Positions 24,396 through 64,000 of a stretch of DNA of 64,000 nucleotides are shown here, one piece after another (the stretch's first letter is position 1; each line of letters starts with the position of its first letter). This stretch comes from Natrarchaeobaculum aegyptiacum (lineage in GTDB: Archaea; Halobacteriota; Halobacteria; Halobacteriales; Natrialbaceae). Both the position numbers and the translations under genes were made by a program. The notes under the pieces were generated by a model. It saw nothing but the letters and a program-made list of their open reading frames with translations, made no database searches and was not told the DNA's origin. The stretch covers positions 3,472,001 to 3,536,000 of the forward strand of contig NZ_CP019893.1 in assembly GCF_002156705.1 (NCBI RefSeq), read 5' to 3'.

Positions 24396-25748
24396 ATGAA
24401 CTACCTCGCGTTCGACGGCCGGATGGGCGCAAGCGGCGACATGATCCTCGGGGCGCTGCTCGACGCCGGGGCCGACCCCGACGCCCTCGAGCCAATCACC
24501 GACTCGGACGTCCTCACCCTCGAGTACCGGCTCGAGGAGACCGTCAAGGCGGGGATCTCGGGGACGAGCGTGGACGTGGTGCTCGAGGACGCGTCCGGTG
24601 ACGGGGGCTCGAGCGGCGGGTCGTCCGAAGACGACGGTGGGCACGAGCACGATCACGGCGACCAGTCCCACGAGCACGCACAAGACGACCACAGCCACGG
24701 TGGCGACCATGATCACGGGGACCACAGCCACGGCCACGACCACGTCCACGCCGAGGGCCACGGTCCCCACCGGAGCTACCGCGAGGTCTGCGACATCGTC
24801 GAAGAGATGGCCCTCCCCACAGCCGTCGAACGCGACGCCCTCGAAATCTTCGAACTCCTCGGCGAAGCCGAGGCGAGCGTCCACGGCGAATCGCTCGAGG
24901 AGATTCACTTCCACGAGGTCGGGGCCGACGACGCCATCGCCGATATCGTGGGCGCGGCGCTGTTGATCGACGACCTCGAGCCGGACCGGATCGTCACCAC
25001 CTCGCTCGCGACGGGCGGTGGTACGGTCTCGATGAGCCACGGCGAGTATCCCGTTCCGACGCCCGCGGTGGTCGAAATCGCCGCCCGCGCCGACTGGACG
25101 CTGCAGGGTGGCCCCGTCGAGCGGGAACTCCTCACGCCCACGGGCGCGGCTATCCTGGGGCACTACGCCGACGGCGTCGAAACCCTCCCTGCGCTCGAGG
25201 TTTCGGCCGTCGGCTACGGCGCGGGTGGGTACGACCTCGAGCCCCACCCGAACGTGCTCCGGGTCCTCGTCGGCGACGGCGGGGGCGGCCTCCGCAAGGA
25301 GGACATCGCCGTTCTCGAGACGAACCTCGACGACGCCACCCCCGAGGTTCTCGGCGGCCTGCAGGAGACGCTCACCGACGCGGGCGCTCGAGACGTCTCC
25401 ATCCTCCCGGCGACGATGAAGAAGTCCCGGCCCGGCCATCTGGTGAAGGTGATCTGCCGGCCAGCGGATCGGGAGCGCGTGGCTCGAGCGTTAGCGGAGG
25501 AGACGGGCACACTCGGCGTCCGGGACGCTGGGGTGACCCACAGGTGGGTTGCTACTAGGGAATTTGAGACGGTGAGACTCGAGATTGACGGCGAGGAGTA
25601 CGAGGTGACCGTGAAGGTGGCGAGCGACGCCGACGGTGAGGTTTACGACGTTAGCGCGGAATTCGACGACGTTCAGTCTGTGGCGCTCGAGACCGGAACT
25701 CCCGTTCGAGAGGTGCGAAGACAGGCTGAGCAGCAGTACGTCGGATAA
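24396..25748 (+). CDS. larC: LarC-like nickel-pincer cofactor biosynthesis protein
   Basis: The 450-aa protein starts FDGRMGASGDMILGALLDAG, the LarC N-terminal signature, and later has ETNLDDATPEVLG and SILPATMKKSRPGHLVKVI, both hallmarks of the family. LarC inserts nickel into the pincer nucleotide cofactor in a CTP-dependent step. At about residues 75-130 is a very His/Asp/Glu-rich insertion (many H-D/E-H repeats) that probably stores or feeds nickel. The start at 24396 is chosen because the conserved part begins there; an upstream in-frame ATG at 24279 adds a non-conserved stretch. No larB or larE is adjacent. Confidence 0.9.
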   Translation: MNYLAFDGRMGASGDMILGALLDAGADPDALEPITDSDVLTLEYRLEETVKAGISGTSVDVVLEDASGDGGSSGGSSEDDGGHEHDHGDQSHEHAQDDHSHGGDHDHGDHSHGHDHVHAEGHGPHRSYREVCDIVEEMALPTAVERDALEIFELLGEAEASVHGESLEEIHFHEVGADDAIADIVGAALLIDDLEPDRIVTTSLATGGGTVSMSHGEYPVPTPAVVEIAARADWTLQGGPVERELLTPTGAAILGHYADGVETLPALEVSAVGYGAGGYDLEPHPNVLRVLVGDGGGGLRKEDIAVLETNLDDATPEVLGGLQETLTDAGARDVSILPATMKKSRPGHLVKVICRPADRERVARALAEETGTLGVRDAGVTHRWVATREFETVRLEIDGEEYEVTVKVASDADGEVYDVSAEFDDVQSVALETGTPVREVRRQAEQQYVG

Positions 25749-26045
25749 TTCATGTTCCACTGATTCGATGCCGACGGTGACCGGGTCTAAGCCGCGAATG
25801 TACGTCGATTCCTGGCACCAACCGCGTCAGAATCCTCACGGTAGTTGTGTCGCTAATTATCCACCGACCGACGTGGCACGTGTGCGTCGTCCTCGAGGTA
25901 TTGCGGTCGGGAAATTCGGTTACTCGCTGCGGGGTTTCTCGTATCGAGGTTTCAATTCTGTTGTGGTCCGCCACTGCCGCCGGTTGGTGCAGACCTCGTG
26001 CAGTATCGTTGTAAAATAGGAATAACGGAGGTAGTTACAGCTGCG
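25749..26045. other. Intergenic region, no gene seen
   Basis: It lies between the convergent larC and the first Q/N-rich secreted protein gene. No gene or RNA is recognised. Confidence 0.5.
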
Positions 26046-26507
26046 TTAGCCGATTACGTTGGTCGCAGTGGAGGTGCCGTCCTGGACTGCGATGTTGTTC
26101 TGCACGTTCGACTGGTCGATTTCCGCGGTCTGGGTCTGCTCCACGTCTTCAGCGAAGCCAACGCCAATAGCGGTAGCAGTAGCGTCACCAGCCGAGAAGG
26201 CACCAGTATCGCCGTTGGTATTGCCGTCATTCAGGGCCCCAATCTCACCTTCTTCACCAGCGACGTTCACCTCGAAGGTCCAGTCGCCACCGGTGGCCTC
26301 AGCCGATGCAAGGCCAACGCCAGCAGCCTGGCCCTGGTTGATCTCGGCTTCAGGCTGGTTGACGTTCACCTGATCACCTTCCTGAACCTGGACCATGTTA
26401 GAATCAGCGTCCTGGGTGGTCTGTGCTGCTGCTGTTCCGGCGAGCCCCATAAACGCGAGGGCCCCGATCATCGCTACCGTCAGTGTAATTGCGAATGCGC
26501 GCTTCAT
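26046..26507 (-). CDS. Secreted Q/N-rich protein, paralogue 1 (candidate fibre subunit)
   Basis: The 153-aa precursor has a Sec-type signal peptide (MKRAFAITLTVAMIGALAF, cleavage near GTAAA) shared almost identically by the next two genes. The mature part has VQVQEGDQVNVNQ, then a strand-rich stretch, a variable acidic Gly/Asn loop, and a C-terminal EIDQSNVQNNIAVQDGTSTA block. Regular Gln/Asn positions resemble the ladders of curlin-type beta-solenoids. No enzyme motif is present. It lies in a tandem of three on the minus strand, next to the large divergent repeat protein. A role as minor subunit or nucleator is inferred. Confidence 0.7.
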   Translation of the reverse strand: MKRAFAITLTVAMIGALAFMGLAGTAAAQTTQDADSNMVQVQEGDQVNVNQPEAEINQGQAAGVGLASAEATGGDWTFEVNVAGEEGEIGALNDGNTNGDTGAFSAGDATATAIGVGFAEDVEQTQTAEIDQSNVQNNIAVQDGTSTATNVIG

Positions 26508-26716
26508 GTTTGATAGTCACGAGGCACGCATCACCCCGGGGGGTACGCTCCGTAACGGATTCGGCGACCATCGCATGGCCGCCGCTCGTCACGGGAGTAT
26601 CATCCGACTCCCTGTGTCCCCGCTGTGACGCGTTGCCCAGTCCGGTCTCATCACGGTGTCCCACTTCAACCCGATAAACGGTTTCAGAGTCCAGAGCCGG
26701 ATTTCGTCGTTTGAAA
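26508..26716 (-). repeat. Conserved ~210-bp leader, copy 1
   Basis: Upstream of paralogue 1 and repeated with few changes before paralogues 2 and 3. It runs from the start codon to a TTTCAAACGACGAAAT-like block at the far end (read on the minus strand). Conservation beyond what a core promoter needs suggests a long 5' UTR or an upstream regulatory site. No other gene is seen up to 26943. Confidence 0.6.
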
Positions 26717-26943
26717 ATCGTCTAAAGGCGGGACGTTCGACCTCGGTTCGGATCATTCGGACCCACAGTCCAGTGAGCATATGCCGCCTTCGGGTTACCG
26801 TTATCGGCGAGTTCGATTACTCATTGGGATGGCTCTTGTTGACGTCTTGGTTCGGTACTGACCAACCTTTATCGACGATGGTTGAAGGCGTCTCTCGGAC
26901 TCGCTGTAAAAAAGAGAAATAACGGTCAATGATTACGGCCGCG

Positions 26944-27480
26944 TTAGCCGAGGATGTTGGTCGCAGTCGAGGTACCGTCCTGGACTGCGATGTTGTTCTG
27001 CTCGTTCGACTGGTCAATGGTCGCGTCCTGCGTTTGCGTCACGTTGTCAGCGACACCGATGCCAACAGCGGTTGCGGTAGCGTCACCAGCTGAGAAGGCT
27101 CCACCATCGCCATTGTTATCAGGCTCACCAAATTCGATAATGGGTGAGTCATTTGGTGGTTCCTCACCGTCACCATCGAAGGTCACCTCAACGGTCCAGT
27201 CGCCACCGGTGGCCTCAGCCGCTGCGAGACCAACGCCAGCGGCCTGGCCCTGGTTGATCTCGGCTTCAGGCTGGTTGACGTTCACCTGATCGCCTTCCTG
27301 AACCTGGACCATGTCAGAATTCGCAGTCTGGCTGACCTGTGGCTGCTGCTCGACGACTACCGGCTCTGCTTTCTCGACTGGCTCTGCTTTCTGGTGTGCT
27401 GCTGCTGTTCCGGCGAACCCCATAAACGCGAGGGCGCCGATCATCGCTACCGTCAGTGTAATTGCGAATGCGCGCTTCAT
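26944..27480 (-). CDS. Secreted Q/N-rich protein, paralogue 2
   Basis: The 178-aa precursor has the same signal peptide as paralogue 1 and an extra spacer with two KAEPVEKAEPVV-like elements plus VEQQPQVSQTAN before the shared VQVQEGDQVNVNQ block. The central loop is longer and acidic (PPNDSPIIEFGEPDNNGDGG), and the C-terminus is the shared IDQSNEQNNIAVQDGTS block ending ATNILG. It is about 436 bases from paralogue 1, with a full leader between them. Divergence is concentrated in the middle loop, as expected if ends and ladder strands are structural. Confidence 0.7.
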   Translation of the reverse strand: MKRAFAITLTVAMIGALAFMGFAGTAAAHQKAEPVEKAEPVVVEQQPQVSQTANSDMVQVQEGDQVNVNQPEAEINQGQAAGVGLAAAEATGGDWTVEVTFDGDGEEPPNDSPIIEFGEPDNNGDGGAFSAGDATATAVGIGVADNVTQTQDATIDQSNEQNNIAVQDGTSTATNILG

Positions 27481-27693
27481 GTTTGATAGTCACGAGGCAC
27501 GCATCACCCCGAGGGATACGCTCCGTAACGGATTCGGCGACCATCGCATGGCCGCCGCTCGTCACAGGAGTATCATCCGACTCCCTGTGTCCCCGCTGTG
27601 ACGCGTTGCCCAGTCCGGCCTCATCACGGTGTCCCACTTCAACCCGACAATCGGTTTCAGGGGCCAGAGCCGGATTTCGTCGTTTGAAACCGT
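27481..27693 (-). repeat. Conserved ~210-bp leader, copy 2
   Basis: The same sequence as copy 1 with scattered substitutions, directly before the paralogue 2 start codon. The remaining bases to 27919 show no gene. Confidence 0.6.
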
Positions 27694-27919
27694 CATGTAT
27701 TGTGACACACGCCACTGATCCGTAACAATTGGACGTCCGAATCAATGAAGATACGCCGTCCTCGAGTTGGCGTGGTCCACGAGTTCTGTTACTCGTCGCA
27801 TCGGCTTTGGGATTTACGTCTCGGTTTGGTACTAATCTGGCCCCATCGCCGATCGTTCAAGCCGTCGCTCGCTACCGGTACACAAAAAGGAAGAAATAAC
27901 GGAAGTCGTTACGGCCTCG

Positions 27920-28444
27920 TTAGCCGAGGATGTTGGTCGCAGTGGAGCTACCGTCCTGGACTGCGATGTTGGTCTGCTCGTTCGACTGGTCGATGGTCGC
28001 GTCCTGCGTCTGCGTCACGTTGTCAGCGATGCCGATGCCCAGAGCGCCAGCGTCGGCGTCACCAGCCGAGAAGGCACCATCATCGCCGTTGTCATTACCA
28101 TTGCTCTCAAAGACTTCGACTGGTTCACCGTTTTCACCATCGACGTTCAGTTCGAAGGTCCAGTCGCCACCGGTGGCTTCAGCCTCGGCAGCGCCAACGC
28201 CAGCGGCCTGGCCCTGGTTGATCTCGGCCTCGGGCTCGTTGATGTTCACCTGATCGCCATCCTGAATCTGAACCAGGTCAGAGTTCGCAGTCTGGCTGAC
28301 CTGTGGCTGCTGTTCAACGACTACCGGCTCTGCTTTCTCGACTGGCTCTGCTTTCTGGTGTGCTGCTGCTGTTCCGGCGAACCCCATAAACGCGAGGGCG
28401 CCGATCATCGCTACCGTCAGTGTAATTGCGAATGCGCGCTTCAT
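27920..28444 (-). CDS. Secreted Q/N-rich protein, paralogue 3
   Basis: The 174-aa precursor is closest to paralogue 2: same signal peptide, same KAEPVEKAEPVV spacer, a VQIQDGDQVNINEP variant of the Gln/Asn block, a different acidic loop (EVFESNGNDNGDDG) and the C-terminal IDQSNEQTNIAVQDGSS block. The Ala/Gln ladder positions are kept while the loop is changed. It is the promoter-proximal copy nearest to the divergent five-repeat gene. Confidence 0.7.
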   Translation of the reverse strand: MKRAFAITLTVAMIGALAFMGFAGTAAAHQKAEPVEKAEPVVVEQQPQVSQTANSDLVQIQDGDQVNINEPEAEINQGQAAGVGAAEAEATGGDWTFELNVDGENGEPVEVFESNGNDNGDDGAFSAGDADAGALGIGIADNVTQTQDATIDQSNEQTNIAVQDGSSTATNILG

Positions 28445-28655
28445 GTTTGATAGTCACGAGGCACGCATCACCCCGGGGGTACGCTCCGTAACGGATGCGA
28501 CGACCACGCATGGCCACCGCTCGTCACGGGAGTACCATCCGACTCCCTGTGTCCCCGCTGTGACGCGTTGCCCAGTCCGGTCTCATCACGGTGTCCCACT
28601 TCAACCCGCCAAACGGTTTCAGAGGCCAGACCTGAATTTCGTCGTTTGAAACCGT
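28445..28655 (-). repeat. Conserved ~210-bp leader, copy 3
   Basis: The third copy of the leader, slightly shorter because of a small deletion about 50 bases from the start codon. From here to 29113 no gene is seen; this stretch carries the two divergent promoters of the locus. Confidence 0.6.
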
Positions 28656-29113
28656 CTACGGGCGAGATAGGGACAGGATGAAAGATCCGTTGGGCGTCGC
28701 TTAATAACCATACGGAGCGCCTATTCACAACCCACCCCCACCCGTAACCGATCTCCGACCACCCGAGACACTGTCGAACAGTTCACCCCAGTGACTGATT
28801 CGGTCACCGAGGAGTGGGATAGTTGTACTTTCGAGGCCGCTCGAGCGGTTTCGCCGCTCACCAACGTGTTGCACTCCGGGCTACTCGTGATCGGCTGGGC
28901 CCGCACCTGCCGTCGAGACCTCGATCGTCGACCGGCCATCTCGAGCCGGCGTCGGAAGTCACCGCATTCGAGTTCGAAGGTGACCGCTTCTGATCGGTAG
29001 GCGACTGCATCCGCTATGCAACTGACAGATAACAAAGTCAGTCATCAGGAAATGAAGGTTCACGCCGTGGAGTTCCGGAAACAAAGACTCTCACGGTCTA
29101 CGTCAAACGAATC

Positions 29114-30691
29114 ATGACCAACACGACGACCATACGTTCACAGTGTACGACGATTTTGATGGCCTGCATCGTCGCCGTCGCGATGCTCGGCGCCGGTGCC
29201 GCCGGCGCCGCCGCTCAAGAGGATCCCGCGAGCGAAAGCGCATACGCACTCGAGAACGACGAGGGACTCTACCTCGTCTTCGGTGCTGATCTGGGCGACG
29301 ATATGACCCTGGAGGAGTACATCGAGGCTCACGCCTCCGGTGATCAGGTTGCAGACGCAGAGGTCACCCAGTACTCGGACGTCGACCAGGTGAATATCAA
29401 CCAGCAGGGTAACGCCACGTCGATTTCGATCGACGGCGGTGAGGCCACCGCGGTTCAGGAGGCCAACCAGCTGAACTCCAACGAACAGTTCGCCGATGCA
29501 TCAGCTGACAACGTCCAGGGTGACGTGGTCCAGTTCGACGACGTCGGTGACGTCACCATTATCATCGGTAACGGTGACGGCCAGAGCTTCGACGGCTGGG
29601 GTATCGCCGACAAGAAAGGTGACAAAGCCGAAGTTGACGGCGACCAGGAAGCCGAAGCGGTCGTCACCCAGGTCCAGGAAGTCGGCCAGCTGAACTACAA
29701 CGAACAGAACACCGCGTTCGCGATCGCCGAGAACGGTAGTACGGCGACCGCTATCCAGCAGTCCCATCAGTCTAACCAGAACCTGCAGCAAGGAATTGCA
29801 AACGCGACGAACGTCTACGTCGGTGGCGGTGAGTTCGTCGACAAGACCGGCGACCACACGAAATCCGGTGACTCCGGATCCGGCGTCGATCAGGTCGCCG
29901 AGGCCGAGGTCGCCCAGGGACAGGCCGGTGACCAGTTGAACGTCAACGAACAGGACGGTGCCGTTGCCATCGCCGTCGGCGAAGACAGCGTGGCGACCGC
30001 CATCCAGTTCACTGACCAGACGAACCTCAACGAACAACTCGCCGATGCCAGCGCCCAGAACATCGTCGCTGGAATGGCCGGGATGGACGTCGCCACTGCT
30101 GGCTTCGACGGCAGCAACGATGTCCTCGAAACCGACGAAGTCGTCGATACCTTCGGCGACGAGAAAGACGACCACCACAAGAAAGCCGACAAGGACGAGA
30201 TCCAGTCGGCGACCTCTGAAGTGACCCAGGAGCAGGCTGTCGAGCAGATGAACGTCAACCTGCAAAACACCGCGTTCGCGTACGCCACCAACGGCAGCGA
30301 AGCGACCGCGGTGCAGCTCGCCTACCAGAGCAACATCAACGCACAGGTCGGCTTCGCCGATGCGCTGAACGTCTACGCCGGCCCGAGCCACCAGTACGAG
30401 AACGCGATGGTCACCTCGACCATGAGCGTCACCGTTGGTGGCGAGGACGTCGACGGCCTCGAGGGGCTCGCCTACGACTACGACGCGCTCCAGACGAACG
30501 ACCCGAGCCAGCACGCGACCGCACAGCTCGAACAGGTCCAGTTCATCGACCAGCAGAACGTCAACGAGCAGCAGGCTGCCATCGCCGTCGCCGAAAACGG
30601 TGAGAGTGCAGACGCTGCCCAGGTGAGTCTGCAGGAGAACGAGAACATCCAGTTCGGCTCCGTCGCAGCGACGAACGTCTGGGCCGCGTAA
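29114..30691 (+). CDS. Secreted five-repeat Q/N-ladder protein (candidate curli-like fibre subunit)
   Basis: The 525-aa precursor has a Sec signal (about residues 1-34, ending GAAAQ). Five units follow at about residues 77-135, 178-237, 259-319, 362-422 and 466-525; the last unit ends the protein exactly. Each unit has two Q-x-N-x-N-x-Q motifs, ten in all with no exception (for example QLNYNEQ, QTNLNEQ, QENENIQ), joined by AxAIAxNG and ATAxQ segments and closed by ANV/TNV. Units are separated by acidic linkers of ~25-45 residues. The pattern resembles curlin repeats (S-x5-Q-x-G-x2-N-x-A-x3-Q) without being the same. I infer a beta-solenoid or amyloid-like surface fibre. There is no cysteine in the mature protein and no sortase or lipid motif. 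Confidence 0.75.
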   Translation: MTNTTTIRSQCTTILMACIVAVAMLGAGAAGAAAQEDPASESAYALENDEGLYLVFGADLGDDMTLEEYIEAHASGDQVADAEVTQYSDVDQVNINQQGNATSISIDGGEATAVQEANQLNSNEQFADASADNVQGDVVQFDDVGDVTIIIGNGDGQSFDGWGIADKKGDKAEVDGDQEAEAVVTQVQEVGQLNYNEQNTAFAIAENGSTATAIQQSHQSNQNLQQGIANATNVYVGGGEFVDKTGDHTKSGDSGSGVDQVAEAEVAQGQAGDQLNVNEQDGAVAIAVGEDSVATAIQFTDQTNLNEQLADASAQNIVAGMAGMDVATAGFDGSNDVLETDEVVDTFGDEKDDHHKKADKDEIQSATSEVTQEQAVEQMNVNLQNTAFAYATNGSEATAVQLAYQSNINAQVGFADALNVYAGPSHQYENAMVTSTMSVTVGGEDVDGLEGLAYDYDALQTNDPSQHATAQLEQVQFIDQQNVNEQQAAIAVAENGESADAAQVSLQENENIQFGSVAATNVWAA

Positions 30692-31095
30692 AGACGATTC
30701 CCCGCTGGCATCGATATCGTCGATTTCCCGTTTCGGGACATCGTTGTCGGCCAACGACTGCGGTTGAGAGTCGATGATCGACCCAGACTGACTATTCCGT
30801 ATCGCCACCGCAACGTTTCTTACTGTTTGTTTTGCCACGACACCCGAACGGCTATAGTAACAACTGCAACGATTCACACACTGATCACCGATCCGTCTGG
30901 CGATCAGGTGTGCACTGACGTGCAGTGGCTACTATACCAGTTGGTCCGTCAGTTCGGTTATCCAACCAGGGGAACCGGGTAGAAGTTCGAACCGGGCGCA
31001 GGTCGTACGTCCCGGTGGTAGCTCACGGTGGCCGCACCGTCACATTGAGGGACGACGCTACCACTCGTGATTTTCGGCTCAGCCTAACTGAGGAG
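30692..31095. other. Intergenic region, no gene seen
   Basis: Only short shadow frames are present. It separates the five-repeat gene from a convergent small secreted protein gene and may hold the terminators of both. Confidence 0.5.
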
Positions 31096-31491
31096 TCACG
31101 GCCTCAGGTCTTCTTCAGCCGGCAGTGTATCGTCGAGAATGTCGTCGACAAGGTCATCGTTCACGTCGTCACCAGGATCGGTGTCGACATCGTCGACGAT
31201 GTCTGAACCAGTATCATTGAGCCCAAGGTCGAGATCTAGATCAGGGAGCTCGTAATCTAACTCATCTTCCTGGACATCCGTTTCCGATTCCTCCTGGATT
31301 ACGACCGATTCGGTCGTCTCTTCCTGTGTTTCGGTTTCGGTGATCGTTTCGTCGAGGTCGAGTTCGACCCAATCGGTGTCGCCGTCTTCCTCTGCAGCCA
31401 CCGCACCGGCCGCGAGTGTAAGCGTCAGTGCAGCCAGTCCGACGACGAGTGCGATCGTTATCGTCCGTCGACCGAGTGTTGTACCTGTCAT
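31096..31491 (-). CDS. Small secreted acidic protein
   Basis: The 131-aa precursor has an N-terminal hydrophobic signal (TITIALVVGLAALTLTLAAG) followed by a very acidic Thr/Glu-rich segment and a C-terminal part with LPDLDLDLGLNDTG and Asp-rich repeats. No domain is recognised. It lies at the edge of the Q/N-repeat locus and could be an accessory surface factor, but the link is only positional. Confidence 0.55.
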   Translation of the reverse strand: MTGTTLGRRTITIALVVGLAALTLTLAAGAVAAEEDGDTDWVELDLDETITETETQEETTESVVIQEESETDVQEDELDYELPDLDLDLGLNDTGSDIVDDVDTDPGDDVNDDLVDDILDDTLPAEEDLRP

Positions 31492-31681
31492 ACTGGATTG
31501 CCTCGAGCGGCAGCGAGGGGGTCGACAGTGACGGGTATAAACGCCGGAAATCGTTGGCCTCTCAAATTTCGGGTTGGAAGCCTGTAGTCCGCCGTTTGCG
31601 TCAGGACCAACGGGTTCGCCATCCGAACACTCCCGGAACCCTGAGAAAGTGGCTTGACGCTCGGTGCGCTCTCACTCTGAC

Positions 31682-32290
31682 ATGGATCGACGAAGGTTCC
31701 TCCTGGTGGGGGCGAGTATCGCCTCGGTCTCGAGTGCGATCGCCGGCTGTCTGGGCGACGCTTCGCCTGCGGCCGACGTGGCGAACGTGGTCGGCGGAGA
31801 CGACGCGGGATCAGAGACGGACGAGCGAGGTACCGAAGACGATACCGGCCCGGACGTAGCCGACTGGGTCGAGTTCGAGCACGTCGACGAGGCGTCGATC
31901 GAACGAGTAGAAGCGATCGATCTCGAGGCCGAACTCGACGACGACGCGGACGAAGCCATCGACGAGTTCATCGACGACCGCGATCACGACGGCGTCCACG
32001 ACTGCTGGCTCGTGAACGAGGCGGACGAGGCCCTCGAGGCGACGATGGATATCGTCACCGGGGACGAGACCGTTCTCGAGGGCTCGGTGTCGCTCCCTGC
32101 CGGTGGCGCACTCGAGATGATCCTCTCCGAGGAAGGGGCCTACGAAACGACGGTCGCCGCCGAATCTGACGGCACGACCACCGAAACGACGACCACTGCG
32201 ACCCCGGATCCCTCGTGTACGGTCTCACGGACGGTGCTTGCGTTCGGGGACGGTGGAAGCGTCAGCACGCACACCGAGTCGAGATGCTGA
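31682..32290 (+). CDS. Tat-type lipoprotein, unknown function
   Basis: The 202-aa precursor starts MDRRRFLLVGASIASVSSAIAGC in sequence terms: twin arginines, a hydrophobic core and a lipobox cysteine. It continues with acidic linkers, a ~110-residue domain including DRDHDGVHDCWLVN, and ends in a Thr-rich stretch and a C-terminal cysteine. The D-x-D-x-D-G-like run could bind calcium. No family was recognised. The start at 31682 was chosen over an in-frame ATG at 31664 because the Tat motif begins there. Confidence 0.6.
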   Translation: MDRRRFLLVGASIASVSSAIAGCLGDASPAADVANVVGGDDAGSETDERGTEDDTGPDVADWVEFEHVDEASIERVEAIDLEAELDDDADEAIDEFIDDRDHDGVHDCWLVNEADEALEATMDIVTGDETVLEGSVSLPAGGALEMILSEEGAYETTVAAESDGTTTETTTTATPDPSCTVSRTVLAFGDGGSVSTHTESRC

Positions 32291-53175: not shown

Positions 53176-54195
53176 ATGCACACTGACCTCAAACCCATCG
53201 AACCAAGAAAAGCACTGGAACTGTATTTAGATGACCGACGTGGTGACTTAGCAGACTGGACACTACGGTCGCACCGCTCTCGACTCTCCACTTTCATCGA
53301 CTGGTGTGAGGAAGAAAGAATTGGAAATCTGAACGAACTCACAGGTCGTGACATTCATCGGTATAAGGTTTGGCGGCGAAATGACGGTGATCTGTCGAAG
53401 GTGACAGTCAAGACGCAGATAGATACGGTCAGAGTATTCGCAAAGTGGTTAGCCAGTATTGAAGGCTGTGACCCAGAACTACCCGCAAAAATCAAATCTC
53501 CTTCATTGGCGAAGGGCGAGAATGCACGATCTGTCGAACTTCATAGCGATGAAGCGACGAAGATCCTAACATACCTCGAAAAATACCACTACTGTACTTT
53601 GCCTCATGTCACTTTATCTTTATTATGGCACGGGCTAATGCGCCGAGGTGCAGTAAGAGCAATCGACCTTCGAGACTACTATCCAGATGAACAGTATCTT
53701 GATCTCAAACATCGTCCCGAATCAGATACGCCGCTAAAGAATGGAACTGGTGGAGAACGGCCAATCGCTGTGTCTGAGTCTGTCTGTGAACTACTAGATG
53801 ACTGGGTTGCAGATAAGCGGCCCAATTCTACCGATGAATATGGACGAAAACCACTTCTCGCAACATCACAAGGCAGAATCCATCTGACTACAATTCAACA
53901 GTACGTCTATATGTGGTCTCGTCCTTGCAAGTATGGTGCTGATTGTCCACATGATCGAGACCCCGACGACTGTAGCTCGGCCAATGAGCGTTATTCTGCG
54001 TCCGAATGCCCATCAAGTATCTCACCGCACGCTGTACGGCGAGGAAGTATAACGCACTGGCTACGTGAGGAGATTCCCCAACCGGTCGTAAGTGACCGTG
54101 CAGACGTTTCAGCCGACGTTCTTGACGCTCATTACGATGAACGCACGTCTCTCGAAAAAATGGAACAAAGAAGGAAGTTCTTAGACAATATATGA
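53176..54195 (+). CDS. Tyrosine recombinase / integrase 1
   Basis: The 339-aa recombinase has an N-terminal SAM-like DNA-binding domain (about residues 5-100, TLRSHRSRLSTFIDWCEEE) and a catalytic domain. The active-site arginine lies in LLWHGLMRRGAVRAIDL, the HxxR box is HAVRRGSITHWL, and the nucleophile tyrosine is in DAHYDERT. A Cys-rich insert (CKYGADCPHDRDPDDC, then more Cys) precedes the HxxR box. AT-rich codon use marks it as acquired. The ATG at 53176 is used because the conserved domain begins a few residues later. It likely mediates integration or excision of the island. Confidence 0.9.
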   Translation: MHTDLKPIEPRKALELYLDDRRGDLADWTLRSHRSRLSTFIDWCEEERIGNLNELTGRDIHRYKVWRRNDGDLSKVTVKTQIDTVRVFAKWLASIEGCDPELPAKIKSPSLAKGENARSVELHSDEATKILTYLEKYHYCTLPHVTLSLLWHGLMRRGAVRAIDLRDYYPDEQYLDLKHRPESDTPLKNGTGGERPIAVSESVCELLDDWVADKRPNSTDEYGRKPLLATSQGRIHLTTIQQYVYMWSRPCKYGADCPHDRDPDDCSSANERYSASECPSSISPHAVRRGSITHWLREEIPQPVVSDRADVSADVLDAHYDERTSLEKMEQRRKFLDNI

Positions 54196-54210
54196 AATAA
54201 AGAGGCTTAC

Positions 54211-55509
54211 CTAACGGTAGTTTTTAATATTTTCATTCTTACTACCGAAGAACCCATTGAATGGATTTCTAGTTCCAGTAGAACGCTTATTCCGCTTTTT
54301 CTTCCGTTTCTTTTTCCTTCGACTCTTTTTCCGACCGCTGTTCTTTCGCTTTGTCGCCTCAACCGTTCCTTTCGCAACCTCACCATCTATATTCGTGATT
54401 CTTACAGTCAACTGATATCCCTTTTTAACATCGCCATCTAATTCGATTCGTTCAATGTTATAGCCATTAAGATGTATAACTGGTCTTTCTTTCGGAACAA
54501 TCACTGGATCAGGGATTTTTATTAGATCATTTTCTTTGAGTATGAGATCGGTTTCAGGCGAATAGTTTCTTGCAGCATCTTCCACAGAATCGAAAGGTAC
54601 ATTCGGATATTGTAATTGGTTTGAATACATCGAGGAATCGGAACCAAGGAAGACTATAACCTTTTCTCCCTTCTGACCATGAGATATATGTAGGTGATCT
54701 TTGGGAATATTTTCTGAAAATGTAAGGAGATTCCCCTTACCATTCACTTTCTCTATCTCTACTTGTGCGAATTTCTCAAGTGGATAATTGTATTCCAATT
54801 CATTACTATCATTATCTTCTTCAGATATGGTTTCTAACTGTTGTGAATCTTCTAATTCTTTTGCGTATTTGAATAGCGATTCATTATACTCCTCTCCATC
54901 TTCGCCATGATGAACACGGAAGTGGCAGTTTGGACAGAGGGCGACAACAGTGTCAGGTTTGTCAGATCCCTTATCACTGAGTTCATGAATGTGATGGGCA
55001 TGAAGATAGGGTTCGCCCGTTTTGCTCGTAAATGGAGCTGGATTTCCGCAACCTTCGCAATTTCCGTTCGCCCGTGCTTTCACATACTCACGTACAGCAG
55101 AGGATCGTGTATACTCTTGTGTTGTTCTTTGTGTAGTCTGTACACTGATTTCATCAACGGATTCTTCAATCGCTTGATCTCGTAGTTCAGACAAATACGT
55201 TGATGTTGTCTCCGACCTGCTCTCTTTTTCTGATTTCTCCTGTGATTTCCCTGAGTCACTTGGTTGCTCCTTCTCAGACAAATTGATCTTAGGAGTGGTA
55301 GAACTCTTCCCGGCCGACGCTTCATCATCCATCCTTCTTTTCCCAATAGACAGTATTTCCTTGCCTCGAACAACCATACTGTCCAACTCAATGTTCATGT
55401 GGTGATCATAACTAGAAAGTCGTCCAGAAATTGGTTTAGATTCTTTTCGATATACAGTCACCTCCTCTCCTAGCATACTCTCTAATGCTTCAAGTGGAGT
55501 GTCAGCCAT
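54211..55509 (-). CDS. LSm-HNH fusion: Sm-like domain joined to an HNH endonuclease
   Basis: The 432-aa protein begins (residues 5-57) with an apparent LSm domain like the haloarchaeal Sm protein: PLEALESMLGEEVTVYRK, then the Sm1-type G-R-L-x2-Y-D-x-H-M-N-I-x-L and Sm2-type V-V-R-G-K-x-I-L-S-I. A Ser/Glu/Lys-rich linker (60-130) follows, then an HNH nuclease: Cys151-x2-Cys154, His170/172/173 (HAHHIHEL), Cys192-x2-Cys195 and His200, giving a zinc ribbon plus catalytic His. The C-terminal half has two stretches (about 247-288 and 343-386) with a TRAM-like beta-barrel look, then a Lys/Arg-rich run (389-408). It is convergent with integrase 1 (15 bases) and upstream of integrase 2. It is not a member of any published system I know; RNA or nucleic acid targeting is inferred. 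Confidence 0.82.
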   Translation of the reverse strand: MADTPLEALESMLGEEVTVYRKESKPISGRLSSYDHHMNIELDSMVVRGKEILSIGKRRMDDEASAGKSSTTPKINLSEKEQPSDSGKSQEKSEKESRSETTSTYLSELRDQAIEESVDEISVQTTQRTTQEYTRSSAVREYVKARANGNCEGCGNPAPFTSKTGEPYLHAHHIHELSDKGSDKPDTVVALCPNCHFRVHHGEDGEEYNESLFKYAKELEDSQQLETISEEDNDSNELEYNYPLEKFAQVEIEKVNGKGNLLTFSENIPKDHLHISHGQKGEKVIVFLGSDSSMYSNQLQYPNVPFDSVEDAARNYSPETDLILKENDLIKIPDPVIVPKERPVIHLNGYNIERIELDGDVKKGYQLTVRITNIDGEVAKGTVEATKRKNSGRKKSRRKKKRKKKRNKRSTGTRNPFNGFFGSKNENIKNYR

Positions 55510-55691
55510 ACCCTCATAACAGTTAGAAAATGGTTTAAACCCATCCTATAAAATTGCGATGAGTACCATTAATTGAGGAGAAACAGGTTTAGAATATATC
55601 CGAATACGTTGTAGTCTGCTATTCACCGTGAGTGGACGATACAGAGTGTGACACCCGTTATTGTAGGTCTCGATCTATGCTGAGACTGGAG

Positions 55692-56801
55692 TCACTCAAA
55701 GTCATCTACAACCTCTGTCAGTATTGTGGCATGCAATTTGCGTTTCTTTTCTTTATCTGTTTTATCGTAGTGTCGGTCGATAACATCGGCCGAGGCATCT
55801 ACATTATCAGACAGGGTTGGTCCATCCCATCCATTTTGGCGCATATATGTAATATATCCTTTACGAAGGTCATGCGGAGAACGTTTACTTGGACAATTCA
55901 TGTCTCCAGCAACTGTTGCTGGGCGGCAGGTATCTGGGTTCCTACCGTGAGGGCAATCTCCGATCAAACACGGGGCAGACCATTTATTAATTCGTGTCCG
56001 AACCGCTGACGCTGAAATCCGTCCCTGCTCAGTAGCGATCAACGGTTCCCGCCCATAACGATCAATCGTGTCTGGGCGTCTATGCTCAATGTAATCACTA
56101 AGCACCTCACATGTGCTAGACGAAATCGGAATCTGGCGTTCACTAGCAGTTTTGTTCTTCAATCGAGTTCCAGTCTTTGGTCGATGCTCTAGGTTAAGAT
56201 AGCCGGTACCATCTTCCAATTCTACGAAGTCGTCAATGTCCAGAGACCTTAATGTACAAGTCCGAATCCCAGTGTCGGTGAGTAGTAGCCATAGTGCATG
56301 GTCCTGAGAGGCGTAATTAAATCGTGAAAGGTGTGATACGACCTCTTTTGCTCGTTCTCGTGTCATGTACCGATCTCTGCTCTTGTCTTCCTCTGCTACC
56401 TCTATTTCCGGTACTTCAACCGAAAGTGCAGGCTTGACATAACCCTGTGATTCACAGTATCGAACAAAGACGCTGAGAGTCTGAAACTGAGTTTCGAGTG
56501 TTCGAGGCTTTACCTTCTTTTCCCTCTTTTCTCTGTACGCTTCCAAATCCTCTTTGGAAAGGTCATTCATATACTCGATTTCGTTATCATCACACCAATC
56601 AACAAATATTCCTAACCGCGACTCGTGGGATCTCATAGTCGATTCGCCGTTGCTCTTCGGGTTGACATCAAGGTATTCGGCCACTGCTTCTTCTGGAGTA
56701 ATTAGACTAAGGTTGAGTTCACTATCATCAATCTTACCTGTTCGGTAGAGGGCGCGGATAACCGCGTTCTCAACGTCTCCAGACGGGTTTTTCGATAACA
56801 T
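55692..56801 (-). CDS. Tyrosine recombinase / integrase 2
   Basis: The 369-aa recombinase is similar in plan to integrase 1: an SAM-like domain with MRSHESRLGIFVDWCDDNEI, catalytic Arg in LLLTDTGIRTCTLRSLDI, HDLRKGYITY as the HxxR box, and Tyr in DRHYDKTD. The Cys-rich insert before HxxR (CLIGDCPHGRNPDTC...) matches that of integrase 1 in spacing. AT-rich codons. With integrase 1 it frames the LSm-HNH gene. The two may belong to separate elements or act in tandem. Confidence 0.9.
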   Translation of the reverse strand: MLSKNPSGDVENAVIRALYRTGKIDDSELNLSLITPEEAVAEYLDVNPKSNGESTMRSHESRLGIFVDWCDDNEIEYMNDLSKEDLEAYREKREKKVKPRTLETQFQTLSVFVRYCESQGYVKPALSVEVPEIEVAEEDKSRDRYMTRERAKEVVSHLSRFNYASQDHALWLLLTDTGIRTCTLRSLDIDDFVELEDGTGYLNLEHRPKTGTRLKNKTASERQIPISSSTCEVLSDYIEHRRPDTIDRYGREPLIATEQGRISASAVRTRINKWSAPCLIGDCPHGRNPDTCRPATVAGDMNCPSKRSPHDLRKGYITYMRQNGWDGPTLSDNVDASADVIDRHYDKTDKEKKRKLHATILTEVVDDFE

Positions 56802-57019
56802 CGTGAATTAACAGAAGAGTTTCACTATAAAAGCTAATATGGTTACTACCTTGCCGCAAACAAAGTCTGTTAACACACACCAATGATGTGCCCAACAGAC
56901 TCTGGCCAATATGACCTAATATTGACTCCTAGAGTTGGATTTTACAAAAAATCCGTTCATTTATTCACAGGCGTCGCTATTCCGTCTAAAGATCACATAG
57001 AAGACTTGATAGGGAATAC

Positions 57020-57190
57020 TTAGTCTTCGTCTTCAAACCACACTTCGGCTTCTTCTTCGTACTCAAAGGTTTGCGCTCGACCATCCTGCGGGATGCCTGT
57101 ACTTTCCCCAGTCGTGCCCGGTGCAGAGTCACCAACATCATGACTTTTGTCAGGGCGACGACCTTCTCCGCAAGCATCTTTCTTACCCAT
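57020..57190 (-). CDS. Small acidic protein in the island
   Basis: The ATG at 57190 opens a 56-aa ORF (MGKKDACGEGRRPDK..., then SHDVGDSAPGTTGESTGIPQ and an EYEEEAEVWFEDED end). A longer overlapping frame exists (56986-57177), but it is basic and unlike haloarchaeal proteins, so this one is preferred. No domain is recognised. Confidence 0.45.
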   Translation of the reverse strand: MGKKDACGEGRRPDKSHDVGDSAPGTTGESTGIPQDGRAQTFEYEEEAEVWFEDED

Positions 57191-57376
57191 ACTGTCCTAT
57201 AGGGTGGACAGTATAATAAATATATGTATAATCGTAGTCAGTCATCCAAAAGAAGTTGTTGATAAAGATAGGATTGTGCAGGTCGATTACCCAACTAGCT
57301 TATTTTAGCAGTACAGACGTTCGCTCACCATTCGTGGCTAACATCTGGGTCATATGTTTCATCATCATATTCACTC

Positions 57377-57867
57377 CATCCGTTCTAGCTTAGCGACTAA
57401 CTGAGACGGTGATCACGCCGAAAATGCGTCGAGTCTCACCGCAATCATACCGAGATAGCTGCTGCTCAAGCAAACCAGCCGGTTCTTGGTCATGTCTCCC
57501 GTCGAAGGCGGCGCACTCGCAGTCGTGAGTGCGCCGCCGTTCCAGAGCCGTCGCTGACCAGCCTGGGCGATCCAGCCCGTCTCGTCAGGCGAGTTCGTTA
57601 CCAGAACTCGCCTGACTCCACCTGTTCACGTAACCTCGGACGGTGTGGATTTGGATCTCGTGACGACCACAGCAACAACGAATCGAGATCCGGTAGCTCG
57701 TACCCCAGATCCAACATCAGGTACAACTGGATCAGATGAGCGTGGCGTTCGACAGCGTGTGAACATCGTCGTCGAGGAAGCCGCGTCGACGACGCCGCGG
57801 CGTCGTCGGCGCAGTCTCGCTGCTTTGCGTCCAGTTTCTGGAGTTCGTCGACGATAACCCGGCTCAT
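57377..57867 (-). repeat. 491-bp IS-end repeat, copy 1
   Basis: Runs from the IS terminus CATCCGTTCTAGC to ...CGGCTCAT, an internal point of the transposase gene. It is directly followed by copy 2 and matches the corresponding part of the full IS (58359-58849). It contains the terminal inverted repeat and the hairpins CAGGCGAGTT/AACTCGCCTG and GGCGGCGCACTC/GAGTGCGCCGCC. Confidence 0.88.
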
Positions 57868-57870
57868 CAT
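57598..57870 (-). pseudogene. Truncated transposase 3' end, copy 1
   Basis: A 90-codon ORF identical to the C-terminal ~89 residues of the full transposase (SRVIVDELQKLDAKQRD... to ...VESGEFW). Its apparent ATG is made by the junction with the next copy. It lacks every catalytic residue. Confidence 0.85.
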
Positions 57871-58358
57871 CCGTTCTAGCTTAGCGACTAACTGAGACGG
57901 TGATCACGCCGAAAATGCGTCGAGTCTCACCGCAATCATACCGAGATAGCTGCTGCTCAAGCAAACCAGCCGGTTCTTGGTCATGTCTCCCGTCGAAGGC
58001 GGCGCACTCGCAGTCGTGAGTGCGCCGCCGTTCCAGAGCCGTCGCTGACCAGCCTGGGCGATCCAGCCCGTCTCGTCAGGCGAGTTCGTTACCAGAACTC
58101 GCCTGACTCCACCTGTTCACGTAACCTCGGACGGTGTGGATTTGGATCTCGTGACGACCACAGCAACAACGAATCGAGATCCGGTAGCTCGTACCCCAGA
58201 TCCAACATCAGGTACAACTGGATCAGATGAGCGTGGCGTTCGACAGCGTGTGAACATCGTCGTCGAGGAAGCCGCGTCGACGACGCCGCGGCGTCGTCGG
58301 CGCAGTCTCGCTGCTTTGCGTCCAGTTTCTGGAGTTCGTCGACGATAACCCGGCTCAT
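57868..58358 (-). repeat. 491-bp IS-end repeat, copy 2
   Basis: The same 491-bp unit as copy 1 with the same junction on both sides. It is followed without gap by the full IS. Confidence 0.88.
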
Positions 58359-58361
58359 CAT
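58089..58361 (-). pseudogene. Truncated transposase 3' end, copy 2
   Basis: The same 90-codon truncated frame as copy 1, with the same artificial start from the IS terminus. It has no catalytic residues. Confidence 0.85.
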
Positions 58362-59987
58362 CCGTTCTAGCTTAGCGACTAACTGAGACGGTGATCACGC
58401 CGAAAATGCGTCGAGTCTCACCGCAATCATACCGAGATAGCTGCTGCTCAAGCAAACCAGCCGGTTCTTGGTCATGTCTCCCGTCGAAGGCGGCGCACTC
58501 GCAGTCGTGAGTGCGCCGCCGTTCCAGAGCCGTCGCTGACCAGCCTGGGCGATCCAGCCCGTCTCGTCAGGCGAGTTCGTTACCAGAACTCGCCTGACTC
58601 CACCTGTTCACGTAACCTCGGACGGTGTGGATTTGGATCTCGTGACGACCACAGCAACAACGAATCGAGATCCGGTAGCTCGTACCCCAGATCCAACATC
58701 AGGTACAACTGGATCAGATGAGCGTGGCGTTCGACAGCGTGTGAACATCGTCGTCGAGGAAGCCGCGTCGACGACGCCGCGGCGTCGTCGGCGCAGTCTC
58801 GCTGCTTTGCGTCCAGTTTCTGGAGTTCGTCGACGATAACCCGGCTCATCAGCAGCGAGAGTGCTGCCATGATGATCAGCGCCTCGATGATGTAGGCGTC
58901 GGTCGTGTTGATCTCGTCCAGACCGAACCGTGATTTGAGTTCTTTGAACAGCAGTTCGATCTCCCAGCGCGCCCGATAGAGCTGTGCGATATCGGGCGCG
59001 CGGTAGTCGTCTCTCTCCAGATTCGTCAGGTACAGATGATACTCGCCGCTGTCATCGTTGCGAACGCCGACTAATCGGAAGGTTCGGGTCGCGCTGGCGC
59101 CCGACCCTCGTTTGCGGTCGAACGAGAGCGTGATCTGTACGTCAATTTCCTGTCGCTTCAGGTCGTCGAGGACGGCCTGCAGCGACTGGCCTTCTAGCGG
59201 AATGCTGTTCCCTCGCCACGTCCGGAGTTCTTCGACGATTTCGAAGTCTGCGTTTTCTTTGACGCGAGAGACGAACCAGCCATCATTGGCGTCAATGCGG
59301 TCGAACAGCCAGAAATCGTAGTAGCCGAGATCGAACAGAATGAGGGCGCCAGCTACCCACTCGCCGGTGGGTAGCTGGCTCCGTTCATGGGTGCTCGCGT
59401 CGGTCGTCCGAAATCGCGTTGGAAGTCCCGTTGAGAGCGATTCGGTGAGATGGAGTTTCGCCCCGGCTCGGTCATCATCGAGTGCGTAGACATCTTTGGC
59501 GTCTTGGTAGAGCGAGATGATCGTCGCGTCGACGATGAGGACGTCTCGAAATCGTTCGAGACGTCCGCTCAGCTCGGTTTGGCCGGTGTCGAGATTCTCG
59601 ATGGCCTCATCGAGAATCTCTCGAAGGAGTGCGACGAACCCTGGTTTGAACCAGCCGTGAAACGTCGCATACGAGAGTTCGTCGCAGTCAGCCATCTCGA
59701 CGTAGCGTTCGAGAAACGCCTGAATGGATCGATCAGAACCAGCGGCAAAGCCGAGGGAGAGCGTGTAAAACAACGCGACGACGTCGAGTTTCCGCTCTCG
59801 CTGGATAAGATTCGTTGCGCGAGCACGCTCGCGCAACTCATCGGATGGAAACGCTCTTTGAATTCGGTTCACAACTACTGAATCCGGTGGTTTGTACACA
59901 CTTCCCACCGGATTCTCACATTCCTAGTTACTGACGATTCTAGCTTGGCGTCTCTGGATACCCCGACCTGTTAAACTAGAACGGATG
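58359..59987 (-). mobile_element. ISH8-like (IS4 family) insertion sequence, full copy
   Basis: About 1.63 kb bounded by imperfect terminal inverted repeats CATCCGTTCTAGCTTA (58359 onward) and CATCCGTTCTAGTTTA (ending 59987, other strand). The transposase gene at 58580-59908 fills most of it. Flanking bases (CATATTCACTC on the left of the array, GTACTCAACTA on the right) show no clear target duplication, which fits a rearranged insertion. Confidence 0.82.
58580..59908 (-). CDS. IS4-family (ISH8-like) DDE transposase
   Basis: The 442-aa transposase has the DDE pattern of IS4: first Asp in RFRDVLIVDATIISLYQ, second Asp in ALILFDLGYYDFWLFDRI, and the catalytic Glu in YRARWEIELLFKELKS (Y-x3-W-x-I-E-L-x-F-K form). 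The C-terminal ~89 residues are repeated in the two upstream fragments. The ORF appears intact and could be active. It starts at 59908, close to the IS end. Confidence 0.9.
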   Translation of the reverse strand: MGSVYKPPDSVVVNRIQRAFPSDELRERARATNLIQRERKLDVVALFYTLSLGFAAGSDRSIQAFLERYVEMADCDELSYATFHGWFKPGFVALLREILDEAIENLDTGQTELSGRLERFRDVLIVDATIISLYQDAKDVYALDDDRAGAKLHLTESLSTGLPTRFRTTDASTHERSQLPTGEWVAGALILFDLGYYDFWLFDRIDANDGWFVSRVKENADFEIVEELRTWRGNSIPLEGQSLQAVLDDLKRQEIDVQITLSFDRKRGSGASATRTFRLVGVRNDDSGEYHLYLTNLERDDYRAPDIAQLYRARWEIELLFKELKSRFGLDEINTTDAYIIEALIIMAALSLLMSRVIVDELQKLDAKQRDCADDAAASSTRLPRRRCSHAVERHAHLIQLYLMLDLGYELPDLDSLLLWSSRDPNPHRPRLREQVESGEFW

Positions 59988-60261
59988 GTACTCAACTAAA
60001 CGAATACAGCATCAAAATATCCCACCTCATCGGGTTCTCCGAAGGCACCTCAAAATCAGACAGTTTAGTTCCAATATTAAAATTGGGTAAAATCCATGCT
60101 ACTAACCACTGCTAAAACGGGAGATATGTACCGGATACCGGAGTAAGCGGGAAATGTTGAAAATTTGGGAAAAGATCCATAGAGAATCTATATAACTTCC
60201 TCTTTTTGTCTGGGAATTATTTGAGAACCATTCTTGTGGTGTGTTAATATACGCACCACCG
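59988..60261. other. AT-rich stretch between the IS and the Rep gene
   Basis: No gene is seen in this AT-rich non-coding DNA, which may hold the origin of the Rep-bearing element. Confidence 0.5.
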
Positions 60262-60288
60262 TTTCCAGTCTTTCCAGTCTTTCCAGTC
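60262..60288 (+). repeat. Short direct repeats (possible iterons)
   Basis: Three perfect tandem copies of TTTCCAGTC (60262-60270, 60271-60279, 60280-60288) followed by a partial one (CTTCCA). They sit ~165-190 bases before the Rep start and are candidates for Rep binding at an origin. 60289-60453 is otherwise non-coding. Confidence 0.5.
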
Positions 60289-60453
60289 CTTCCATTTAAT
60301 CTTAAGTATCACCCGTAGTAATGCCTATGTATACAAGTCAGAAATACGATATAGGTTGCCAATTCACACTAATTGGGTGAAGGCCGGGAAAAGGGCGTGA
60401 AGCACTCTTTTCTTAGGTTTGAGTGATCTTAGTATTTCCGACTATACCCATAT

Positions 60454-61896: not shown

Positions 61897-62155
61897 TTAC
61901 AACGTCGAGGACGCCCGATTATTCAGTCTCTGGTTAGGACCCCCCACCATTTCAAGTGTTCAGCGACGGAGTAAGAATGAATAGTGAGGACAACAAAAGT
62001 ACAATTGGGCTTCTCCATGTCCTTCACCGGGGCGCTGCGGGCGCAACTTACGTCCGCACCCCAATTTGAGCAAGTGAGTAGCACCTGTTGTTATTGCACC
62101 CCCGCCCGCGAACGCTACCGCAGAGCATATGAGACCTGCATAGAACAGTAGTGAT

Positions 62156-63658: not shown

Positions 63659-64000
63659 GCAAGTTGACATCACTGACTACGTAGATTCGGAATCCAAACA
63701 GGATTCTGCATGGGTTGAGAAACGTCTCGGTGAAGTCTTTAATTCCATTTATAGCGGAGGAACTCCAAAGAAAGGGGTAGATGAGTACTATGGCGGGAAC
63801 ATACCATTTGTCAAGATTGAAGACCTGAACGAACAGAAAGGGGAAGGAGTTTCGACAGCAGAAGACTATGTTACCAAACAGGCGTTAGAAGAAACAAGCA
63901 CAAGAGCGTTTGACTCAGGGACGCTTCTACTAACTATCTATGGGAGCCTCGCTGAGACAGCAATAGTTCAGAGCCGTGTGGCTACAAATCAGGCTATTCT
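63651..64000 (+). CDS. hsdS: Type I restriction-modification specificity subunit (HsdS), cut off by window end
   Basis: The frame from the ATG at 63651 runs to the window end without a stop. It starts MSEQVDITDYVDSESKQDS and soon shows the HsdS target-recognition start (WVEKRLGEVFNSIYSGGTP, then YYGGNIPFVKIEDL), typical of the first recognition domain. It picks the DNA sequence methylated by HsdM. The 8-base overlap with hsdM indicates coupled translation. About a quarter of the usual length is seen. Confidence 0.88.
   Translation, partial: MSEQVDITDYVDSESKQDSAWVEKRLGEVFNSIYSGGTPKKGVDEYYGGNIPFVKIEDLNEQKGEGVSTAEDYVTKQALEETSTRAFDSGTLLLTIYGSLAETAIVQSRVATNQAI

Follow-up and report, generated by a model that had tools for sequence, protein, structure and literature searches.

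Does the gene cluster at positions 26,046 to 30,691 of a 64,000-nucleotide stretch of the Natrarchaeobaculum aegyptiacum genome (NCBI RefSeq assembly GCF_002156705.1, contig NZ_CP019893.1, positions 3,472,001 to 3,536,000 of the forward strand; hereafter the window) encode a curli-like fibre, as an initial annotation proposed, or a system of another kind? The cluster comprises a gene for a large secreted protein of 525 amino acids (aa), P0001, and three divergently oriented genes for small secreted proteins, P0002 to P0004. We find that P0001 is built of five conserved units laddered with Gln and Asn (Q/N), each predicted to form two strands, that the small proteins look like its single-unit partners and that none of the four belongs to the curlin family. 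On balance we lean towards a role for P0001 as the principal subunit of a fibre or matrix outside the cell that follows the stacked-rung principle of functional amyloids, a reading in which fibre formation is inferred.

P0001 is composed of five paired-motif units

The features of P0001 are as follows, with unit lengths counted over the 39 rows of the orthologue alignment described below:
29114-30691, plus strand: large secreted protein P0001, 525 aa, with five Q/N-laddered units of two predicted strands, an apparent Sec-type signal and no C-terminal anchor
29234-29353, plus strand: conserved N-terminal segment LYLVFGAD, residues 41-80 (mean identity 0.49; F56 and G57 invariant in another alignment of orthologues)
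29354-29515, plus strand: unit 1, residues 81-134, predicted strands E81-106 and E110-134 (length 54 in 35/39 rows, 53 in 4/39)
29642-29821, plus strand: unit 2, residues 177-236, predicted structure (length 60 in 39/39)
29891-30070, plus strand: unit 3, residues 260-319, predicted structure (length 60 in 39/39)
30200-30379, plus strand: unit 4, residues 363-422, predicted structure (length 60 in 38/39)
30512-30685, plus strand: unit 5, residues 467-524, predicted structure, reaching the protein end (length 58 in 36/39)

The strict motif QxNxNxQ occurs ten times in P0001 (residues 92, 119, 192, 219, 274, 302, 378, 405, 480 and 507), in five pairs with an internal spacing of 27-28 residues. When the mature protein was subjected to 20,000 rounds of composition-matched shuffling, 19,389 shuffles contained no such motif, 604 contained one and 7 contained two, the maximum, compared to ten in the real protein, so that the ten motifs in five units described by the initial annotation are well founded. 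Its unit length of about 60 aa also stood (54-60 aa). The units are not end-to-end but spaced by linkers of 23-44 aa. Unit 5 stops at residue 524 of 525, in agreement with the earlier remark that the protein end coincides with a unit end. The units resemble one another at only 48% on average, and the repeat is therefore not a recent expansion. The signal peptide looks Sec-type; a lipobox reading of its LMAC sequence was rejected because LMAC is not kept across the aligned orthologues. No family was recognised by Pfam or NCBIfam in P0001-P0004, and public plasmid records label the large protein "hypothetical protein" or "PGF-CTERM sorting domain-containing protein".

The large protein is widespread in Natrialbaceae and its units are length-locked

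The source is a haloarchaeal genome of 3.93 Mb, and the nearest locus in a named record is that of Natrialbaceae archaeon LKMK01000237 (80% identity). At an expect value (E) of 1e-3 the large protein was found in 28 of 61 related genomes, namely in 28 of 37 from its own family and 0 of 24 from other families, and a profile search of 391 genomes sampled from the class detected it in 84, of which 79 belong to the own family and 5 do not. A scan of one genome per species yielded 57 loci, mostly from Natrialbaceae but also from Haladaptatus, Halegenticoccus, Halogranum and Halomicrococcus, with several on plasmids. Sorted by signal peptide, 38 loci have a Sec-like signal and 17 one with a Tat-like twin-arginine motif (assigned by regular expression); this tally leaves out L140, whose stretch contains small genes but no large one, and L141, with no open reading frame (ORF), neither of which has a full-length large ORF. 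In Natronorubrum bangense the cassette is alike on the chromosome and on an 828-kb plasmid, through true duplication or an assembly artefact; these two loci (L097 and L098), with the same readings, were counted separately.

For the main alignment we combined P0001 with 38 of the 57 loci, hand-picked to avoid near-duplicates and cut ends (19 left out), giving 39 rows. Linkers between the units range from 3 to 75 aa in these orthologues while the unit lengths stay at 54, 60, 60, 60 and 58 aa, and mean identity to P0001 is 0.57-0.66 in the units versus 0.18-0.43 in the linkers. Each of the ten motif positions is kept in 31-39 of the 39 rows; the second motif of every unit is complete in all of them and the first motifs in 31-36. 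Conservation of the motifs in homologues, which the initial annotation had set beforehand as a check, thus held. When the 195 units are pooled, conservation alternates residue by residue, at 0.89 and 0.86 for inward and 0.31 and 0.26 for outward positions, a difference that none of 20,000 permutations reached. Such alternation is as expected of units that consist of two long β-strands and pack a single Q/N/A face inwards.

Predicted structure and structural matches

AlphaFold2 predicted for P0001 a pair of strands, each of 25-30 residues and arranged as an arch or a hairpin, in all five units and disorder in the linkers, with a mean predicted local distance difference test score (pLDDT) of 59.7, a predicted template modelling score (pTM) of 0.52 and the best ten-residue blocks of the units at pLDDT 86-92. 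The same region of a short-linker Halogranum orthologue was likewise predicted as five two-strand units (mean pLDDT 74.3, pTM 0.69), the unit cores reaching pLDDT 88-97 and 196 of 404 residues at least 90. Stacked β-strands, another check named beforehand, were thus not refuted. We compared both models with 350,542 PDB chains using Foldseek and obtained no significant match for either. At the head of these non-significant rankings stood CsgA (8c50; E 0.31 for P0001, 0.27 for the Halogranum model), followed by FapC (9nqd; E 0.40 and 0.59), while a further FapC structure (9u4u) was fourth of six matches for P0001 (E 5.3) and third of seven for the Halogranum model (E 0.99). VIA-align superposed 92 residues of the P0001 model, spread over residues 84-514, onto CsgA residues 242-355 (2.1 Å, Z 3.3), and 98 residues of the Halogranum model onto CsgA (3.5 Å, Z 3.0); it listed only CsgA for the former and CsgA and NeuO for the latter, FapC being absent from both lists. 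This gives a weak hint that the model stacks its units at rung spacing. A PDB sequence search with the profile of the main alignment returned one chance match only, PhoQ at E 0.057.

Among the six Foldseek matches of the P0001 model is also a β-helical antifreeze protein (3p4g, two chains). On this basis, and given the halophile habitat, the flat and regular Q/N/A/T ladders could be thought to bind a surface that is crystalline or polymeric, such as halite or a polysaccharide, as antifreeze β-solenoids bind ice. However, the 3p4g match ranks third at only E 3.5, and in every unit both strands carry the conserved Q/N face in mirrored fashion, as would be expected of a packed core; we regard a ligand or surface binder as very improbable.

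Small secreted genes encode putative single-unit partners

The small genes of the window are:
26046-26507, minus strand: small secreted protein P0002, 153 aa
26944-27480, minus strand: small secreted protein P0003, 178 aa
27920-28444, minus strand: small secreted protein P0004, 174 aa, divergent from P0001

All three have a common signal peptide and two Q/N blocks, one near the N-terminus and one at the C-terminus, which a long insert separates. In this respect the secreted paralogues correspond to their first description, except that the two blocks, initially taken as separate, are better read as one split unit. A hidden Markov model (HMM) of the unit, built from the large proteins, matched 31 of 4145 other ORFs of the loci versus 0 of 4145 shuffled ORFs, and the majority of the matches are small partner genes, with E down to 3.5e-19. 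The small proteins of the window themselves miss the cut of E 0.01, with scores of just a few bits (5.6 and 1.8 for P0002); three relatives (L088, L086 and L093) link them to the unit HMM at E 8e-5 to 4e-4. On this evidence, chained through relatives, we propose with moderate confidence that each is one unit split by an inserted loop. Haladaptatus encodes several small proteins that are about one unit long after the signal, with two genes in L122 and a tandem array in L140, and overall the small proteins look like single-unit partners of the large protein. On the chromosome of Haladaptatus salinisoli (L140:7896-9852), five small secreted genes, most of about one unit, lie in tandem in a stretch with no large gene.

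A small secreted gene of the MKR type starts divergently within 2.5 kb of the large gene in 30 of the 38 Sec-type loci, and in 3 of the other 8 the sequence on that side stops short of 2.5 kb. The large-plus-small arrangement, mapped across haloarchaea as the initial annotation had advised, is thus kept across Natrialbaceae. The gene order cdc48, larC, small gene(s), large gene, orf339, radB and CBS-domain gene was found whole or in part at 34/38 Sec-type loci and at 0/17 Tat-type loci; the identities of CDC48, LarC and RadB were confirmed, while the CBS protein falls below curated cut-offs and orf339 is without a match. Five of seven own-family genomes without the large protein have a larC match. 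In three (L156, L157 and L158) larC adjoins orf339 with no cassette between them, the gap between the ORFs being about 60 bases in L156, and in the other two the fetched stretch did not contain orf339. Because small and large genes are absent as a whole from these otherwise syntenic larC-orf339 junctions, the cassette behaves as one present-or-absent unit. A PHROGs search gave nothing better than E 0.03 and so suggests no viral origin.

These data bear on the possibility that the large genes and the small ones merely lie side by side, with no link in function and only a low-complexity composition in common. The bodies of the small proteins are indeed very variable, and those of the window score poorly against the unit HMM, as such a reading would have it. 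Conversely, the divergent pairing is retained at 30/38 loci, the unit HMM recovers small proteins of relatives at E down to 3.5e-19 and never a shuffled ORF, and the cassette is missing as a whole at three syntenic sites, rendering a chance neighbourhood improbable.

Signals and C-termini divide the family

The C-termini of the large proteins vary: some end at unit 5, others carry a PGF-CTERM (PF18204, matched in 5/30 large orthologues), and those of the Tat-like class mostly have lysine-rich tails. Among the Sec-type orthologues, most end 1-4 residues after unit 5. The family is thus like archaeal PGF-CTERM surface proteins in these five members and in that the own genome encodes a TIGR04125 archaeosortase of the PGF-CTERM type, whereas PF18204 was not found in P0001, which ends one residue past unit 5, lacks the tail and hence does not qualify as a PGF-CTERM archaeosortase substrate. 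A small partner lies near the large gene at only 1 of the 17 Tat-type loci, so the large protein need not always have a partner encoded nearby. Nothing recurs convincingly beside the solitary Tat-type genes: apart from the large gene itself, only two clusters reach 4/20 loci, in scattered positions, and by our reading these are transcription-regulator-like and ABC-ATPase-like.

Tethered and solitary members raise the alternative of a monomeric β-solenoid stalk or adhesin at the cell surface, in which the five units stack within one capped molecule whose linkers or tails bind, and no polymer forms. The PGF-CTERM anchors would be in keeping with a tethered monomer, for which the conserved LYLVFGAD segment at the N-terminus might serve as a cap, and the Tat-type class lacks a nearby partner at 16/17 loci. 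On the other hand, the position of unit 5 at the very C-terminus of most Sec-type orthologues, with 1-4 extra residues, amounts to an uncapped last rung, and one-unit secreted partners make more sense as co-assembling layers. We therefore deem a monomeric stalk rather unlikely, and favour the fibre or matrix subunit.

Relation to curli, Fap and other extracellular amyloids

No match to PF07012 was found for P0001-P0004 up to E 10, in 30 orthologues up to E 1 or anywhere in the own genome, whereas positive controls (E. coli and one relative, G030) were recovered. The initial annotation had stated that the repeat is not the bacterial curlin consensus, which this search supports. It had also seen no CsgEFG-like genes next to the cluster; accordingly, CsgG (PF03783) was found in 0/37 genomes including the own one, in a search that detected all four control genomes and was aimed at CsgG, not at CsgE or CsgF. 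The curlin repeat is of about 23 aa with the kernel N-$-Psi-$-Psi-$-Q-x-G-x-x according to PMC10192328, compared to which the present unit is about 2.5 times as long and carries QxNxNxQ instead. With no PF07012 match, units of 54-60 aa with QxNxNxQ and no CsgG, membership in the curlin family is rejected. Likeness to CsgA and CsgB exists in the five repeats (as in the E. coli subunit), the two (here predicted) strands per repeat, the Gln and Asn ladders, the combination of major and minor subunits, and the first, though not significant, Foldseek rank of CsgA (8c50) with both models.

The relative G030, of the same family and also possessing a large QxNxNxQ protein, encodes a 245-aa secreted protein that passes the PF07012 cut-off (L142:7052-7789, minus strand) and comprises about eleven 19-aa repeats of the form DADVDQRNxAxVxQDGKNN. 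Distant homology between this protein and the large protein was rejected (hhalign probability 0.5%, 4 columns). One archaeal protein with curli-like repeats is mentioned in PMC3521004.

The functional amyloid FapC of Pseudomonas is described in PMC12392863 as having fixed-length repeats of one layer each, mostly three of about 38-39 aa, linkers of about 30 to 260 residues and buried conserved Asn/Gln, and as being encoded in a six-gene operon (fapABCDEF). Judged against this description, the haloarchaeal proteins are like FapC and FapB in their length-locked repeats joined by linkers of widely varying length, in their conserved Asn/Gln arrays and in the presence of major and minor repeat proteins in one locus; FapC structures are also among the non-significant Foldseek matches of both models (9nqd second in each, 9u4u fourth and third). 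They differ in having five units of 54-60 aa, in the QxNxNxQ motif, which differs from the motif printed in that source, and in their neighbours (cdc48, larC, orf339, radB and the CBS gene), among which no fap operon was seen, no Fap profile search having been made. With its rungs of constant length and linkers of variable length, the family is closer to FapC than to curli. The suggested parallel with major and minor curli subunits thus holds for the large-plus-small arrangement, while FapC offers the better match in architecture and the small proteins look like single-unit partners.

Archaeal extracellular amyloid-like protein is also represented by the sheath proteins of Methanospirillum and Methanosaeta (PMC10593813 and PMC6242892), which are likened here by description only and, unlike the present proteins, form a cylinder around methanogen cells. 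Staining of Haloferax volcanii biofilms by Congo red and thioflavin T was reported in 2014 (PMC4180959), where the gene proposed was only a tentative candidate. No Haloferax locus is among the 57 named loci, and therefore the locus described here does not directly explain the H. volcanii amyloid stain. We found no description of the large-protein family in the openly licensed literature.

A candidate structured leader precedes the small genes

The leaders of the small genes, and a conserved stretch before P0001, are:
26508-26716, minus strand: conserved 5' leader of P0002 (upstream limit approximate)
27481-27689, minus strand: conserved 5' leader of P0003 (upstream limit approximate)
28445-28653, minus strand: conserved 5' leader of P0004 (upstream limit approximate)
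29020-29113, plus strand: conserved non-coding stretch 5' of P0001 with a GCCGTG/CACGGY hairpin (upstream DNA of 10 orthologues aligned)

The shared leader reported for the three small genes is real: about 210 nucleotides are near-identical among the three copies, and single-base indels between them speak against coding. The leader occurs three times in the own genome and nowhere else in it at E 0.01. An nhmmer search of related loci, which took in several genomes twice, returned 39 leader places (E down to 1.9e-38), with the start codon of a small gene in place for 36 of them. Together with the three window copies these made 42 candidates, of which 36 were aligned after removal of 3 duplicates and of 3 others in which no start codon was recognised.

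Compared to shuffles, two window copies fold better (z -3.25 and -2.82) and the third has z -1.82; folding of the stretch before P0001 is not clearly above shuffles (z -1.13, not significant). The closing helix of the leader, GGGCAACGCGTCAC/GTGATGCGTGCC, is paired in 85% of cells. Two helices that we tested show changes on both sides in 14 cells versus 5.3 in shuffles (0/500 reach it) and are paired in 89.1% of cells versus 86.9%, the paired share and the covariation score exceeding all 500 shuffles; the number of pairs with both-side changes, 4, is not above shuffles (137/500 reach that). The long helix had been picked out visually in this very alignment and in the folds of the window copies, so its counts are not independent data. 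Unguided RNAalifold on the whole leader alignment gave only 3 pairs with no compensatory change and did not recover the closing helix, and an Rfam scan of 25700-31700 gave nothing at E 1. We therefore designate the leader a candidate structured 5' RNA element.

A stacked-rung model and its weight

In the model that we favour, P0001 would exit unfolded through Sec, and outside the cell its five units would stack in register through ladders of Q and N side chains, the exposed last rung serving as a template for the next molecule. The linkers of variable length could loop out at the fibre edge, and the small one-unit proteins might nucleate, cap or decorate the fibre. Some relatives would be tethered by archaeosortase through PGF-CTERM and others apparently released or bound otherwise, and the candidate structured leader may control the small genes.

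Several points weigh against this reading. First, polymerisation, amyloid nature and surface location of P0001 are inferred from sequence and predicted structure. Second, the Tat pathway normally exports folded protein, yet 17 loci carry a Tat-type signal, and 16 of these have no small partner nearby. Third, no recurrent secretion or chaperone gene was recognised near the loci. Fourth, the model of the window protein itself is mediocre (mean pLDDT 59.7, pTM 0.52), and AlphaFold2 is prone to favour solenoids for repeats. Fifth, the Foldseek matches have template modelling scores of 0.05-0.15 and probabilities of at most 0.02, with the best three of the Halogranum model at E 0.27-0.99, and so provide a ranking only, while VIA-align Z values of 3.0-3.3 are within the range that the tool calls common.

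The design would be of a known kind, the stacked-rung functional amyloid, while the family itself appears to belong to neither curli nor Fap. More tentatively, and with somewhat less than even confidence, we hypothesize a haloarchaeal functional amyloid system of its own, sequence-unrelated to curli and Fap, with a five-rung subunit of double-length rungs, divergent one-rung partners, export by the general pathways that needs no pore of its own, tethering by archaeosortase in part of the species and a structured RNA leader dedicated to the partner genes. If so, archaea would have arrived independently at the design of curli and Fap, and a named gene candidate for a haloarchaeal biofilm amyloid would be at hand. 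The locus offers a defined and widely conserved gene pair in a haloarchaeal family other than that of H. volcanii. If fibres form, a stacked-rung design whose rungs exceed those of curli more than twofold in length, and that has no recognised export pore, would bear on the minimal needs of such a design.

Other features of the window

Downstream of P0001 lie two genes whose products have no family match and no match in the loci searched:
31096-31491, minus strand: acidic secreted protein, 131 aa
31682-32290, plus strand: probable lipoprotein, 202 aa

At the far end of the window, positions 54001-64000 have a G+C content of 0.42-0.58 compared to about 0.64 in much of the rest, which suggests an acquired island.

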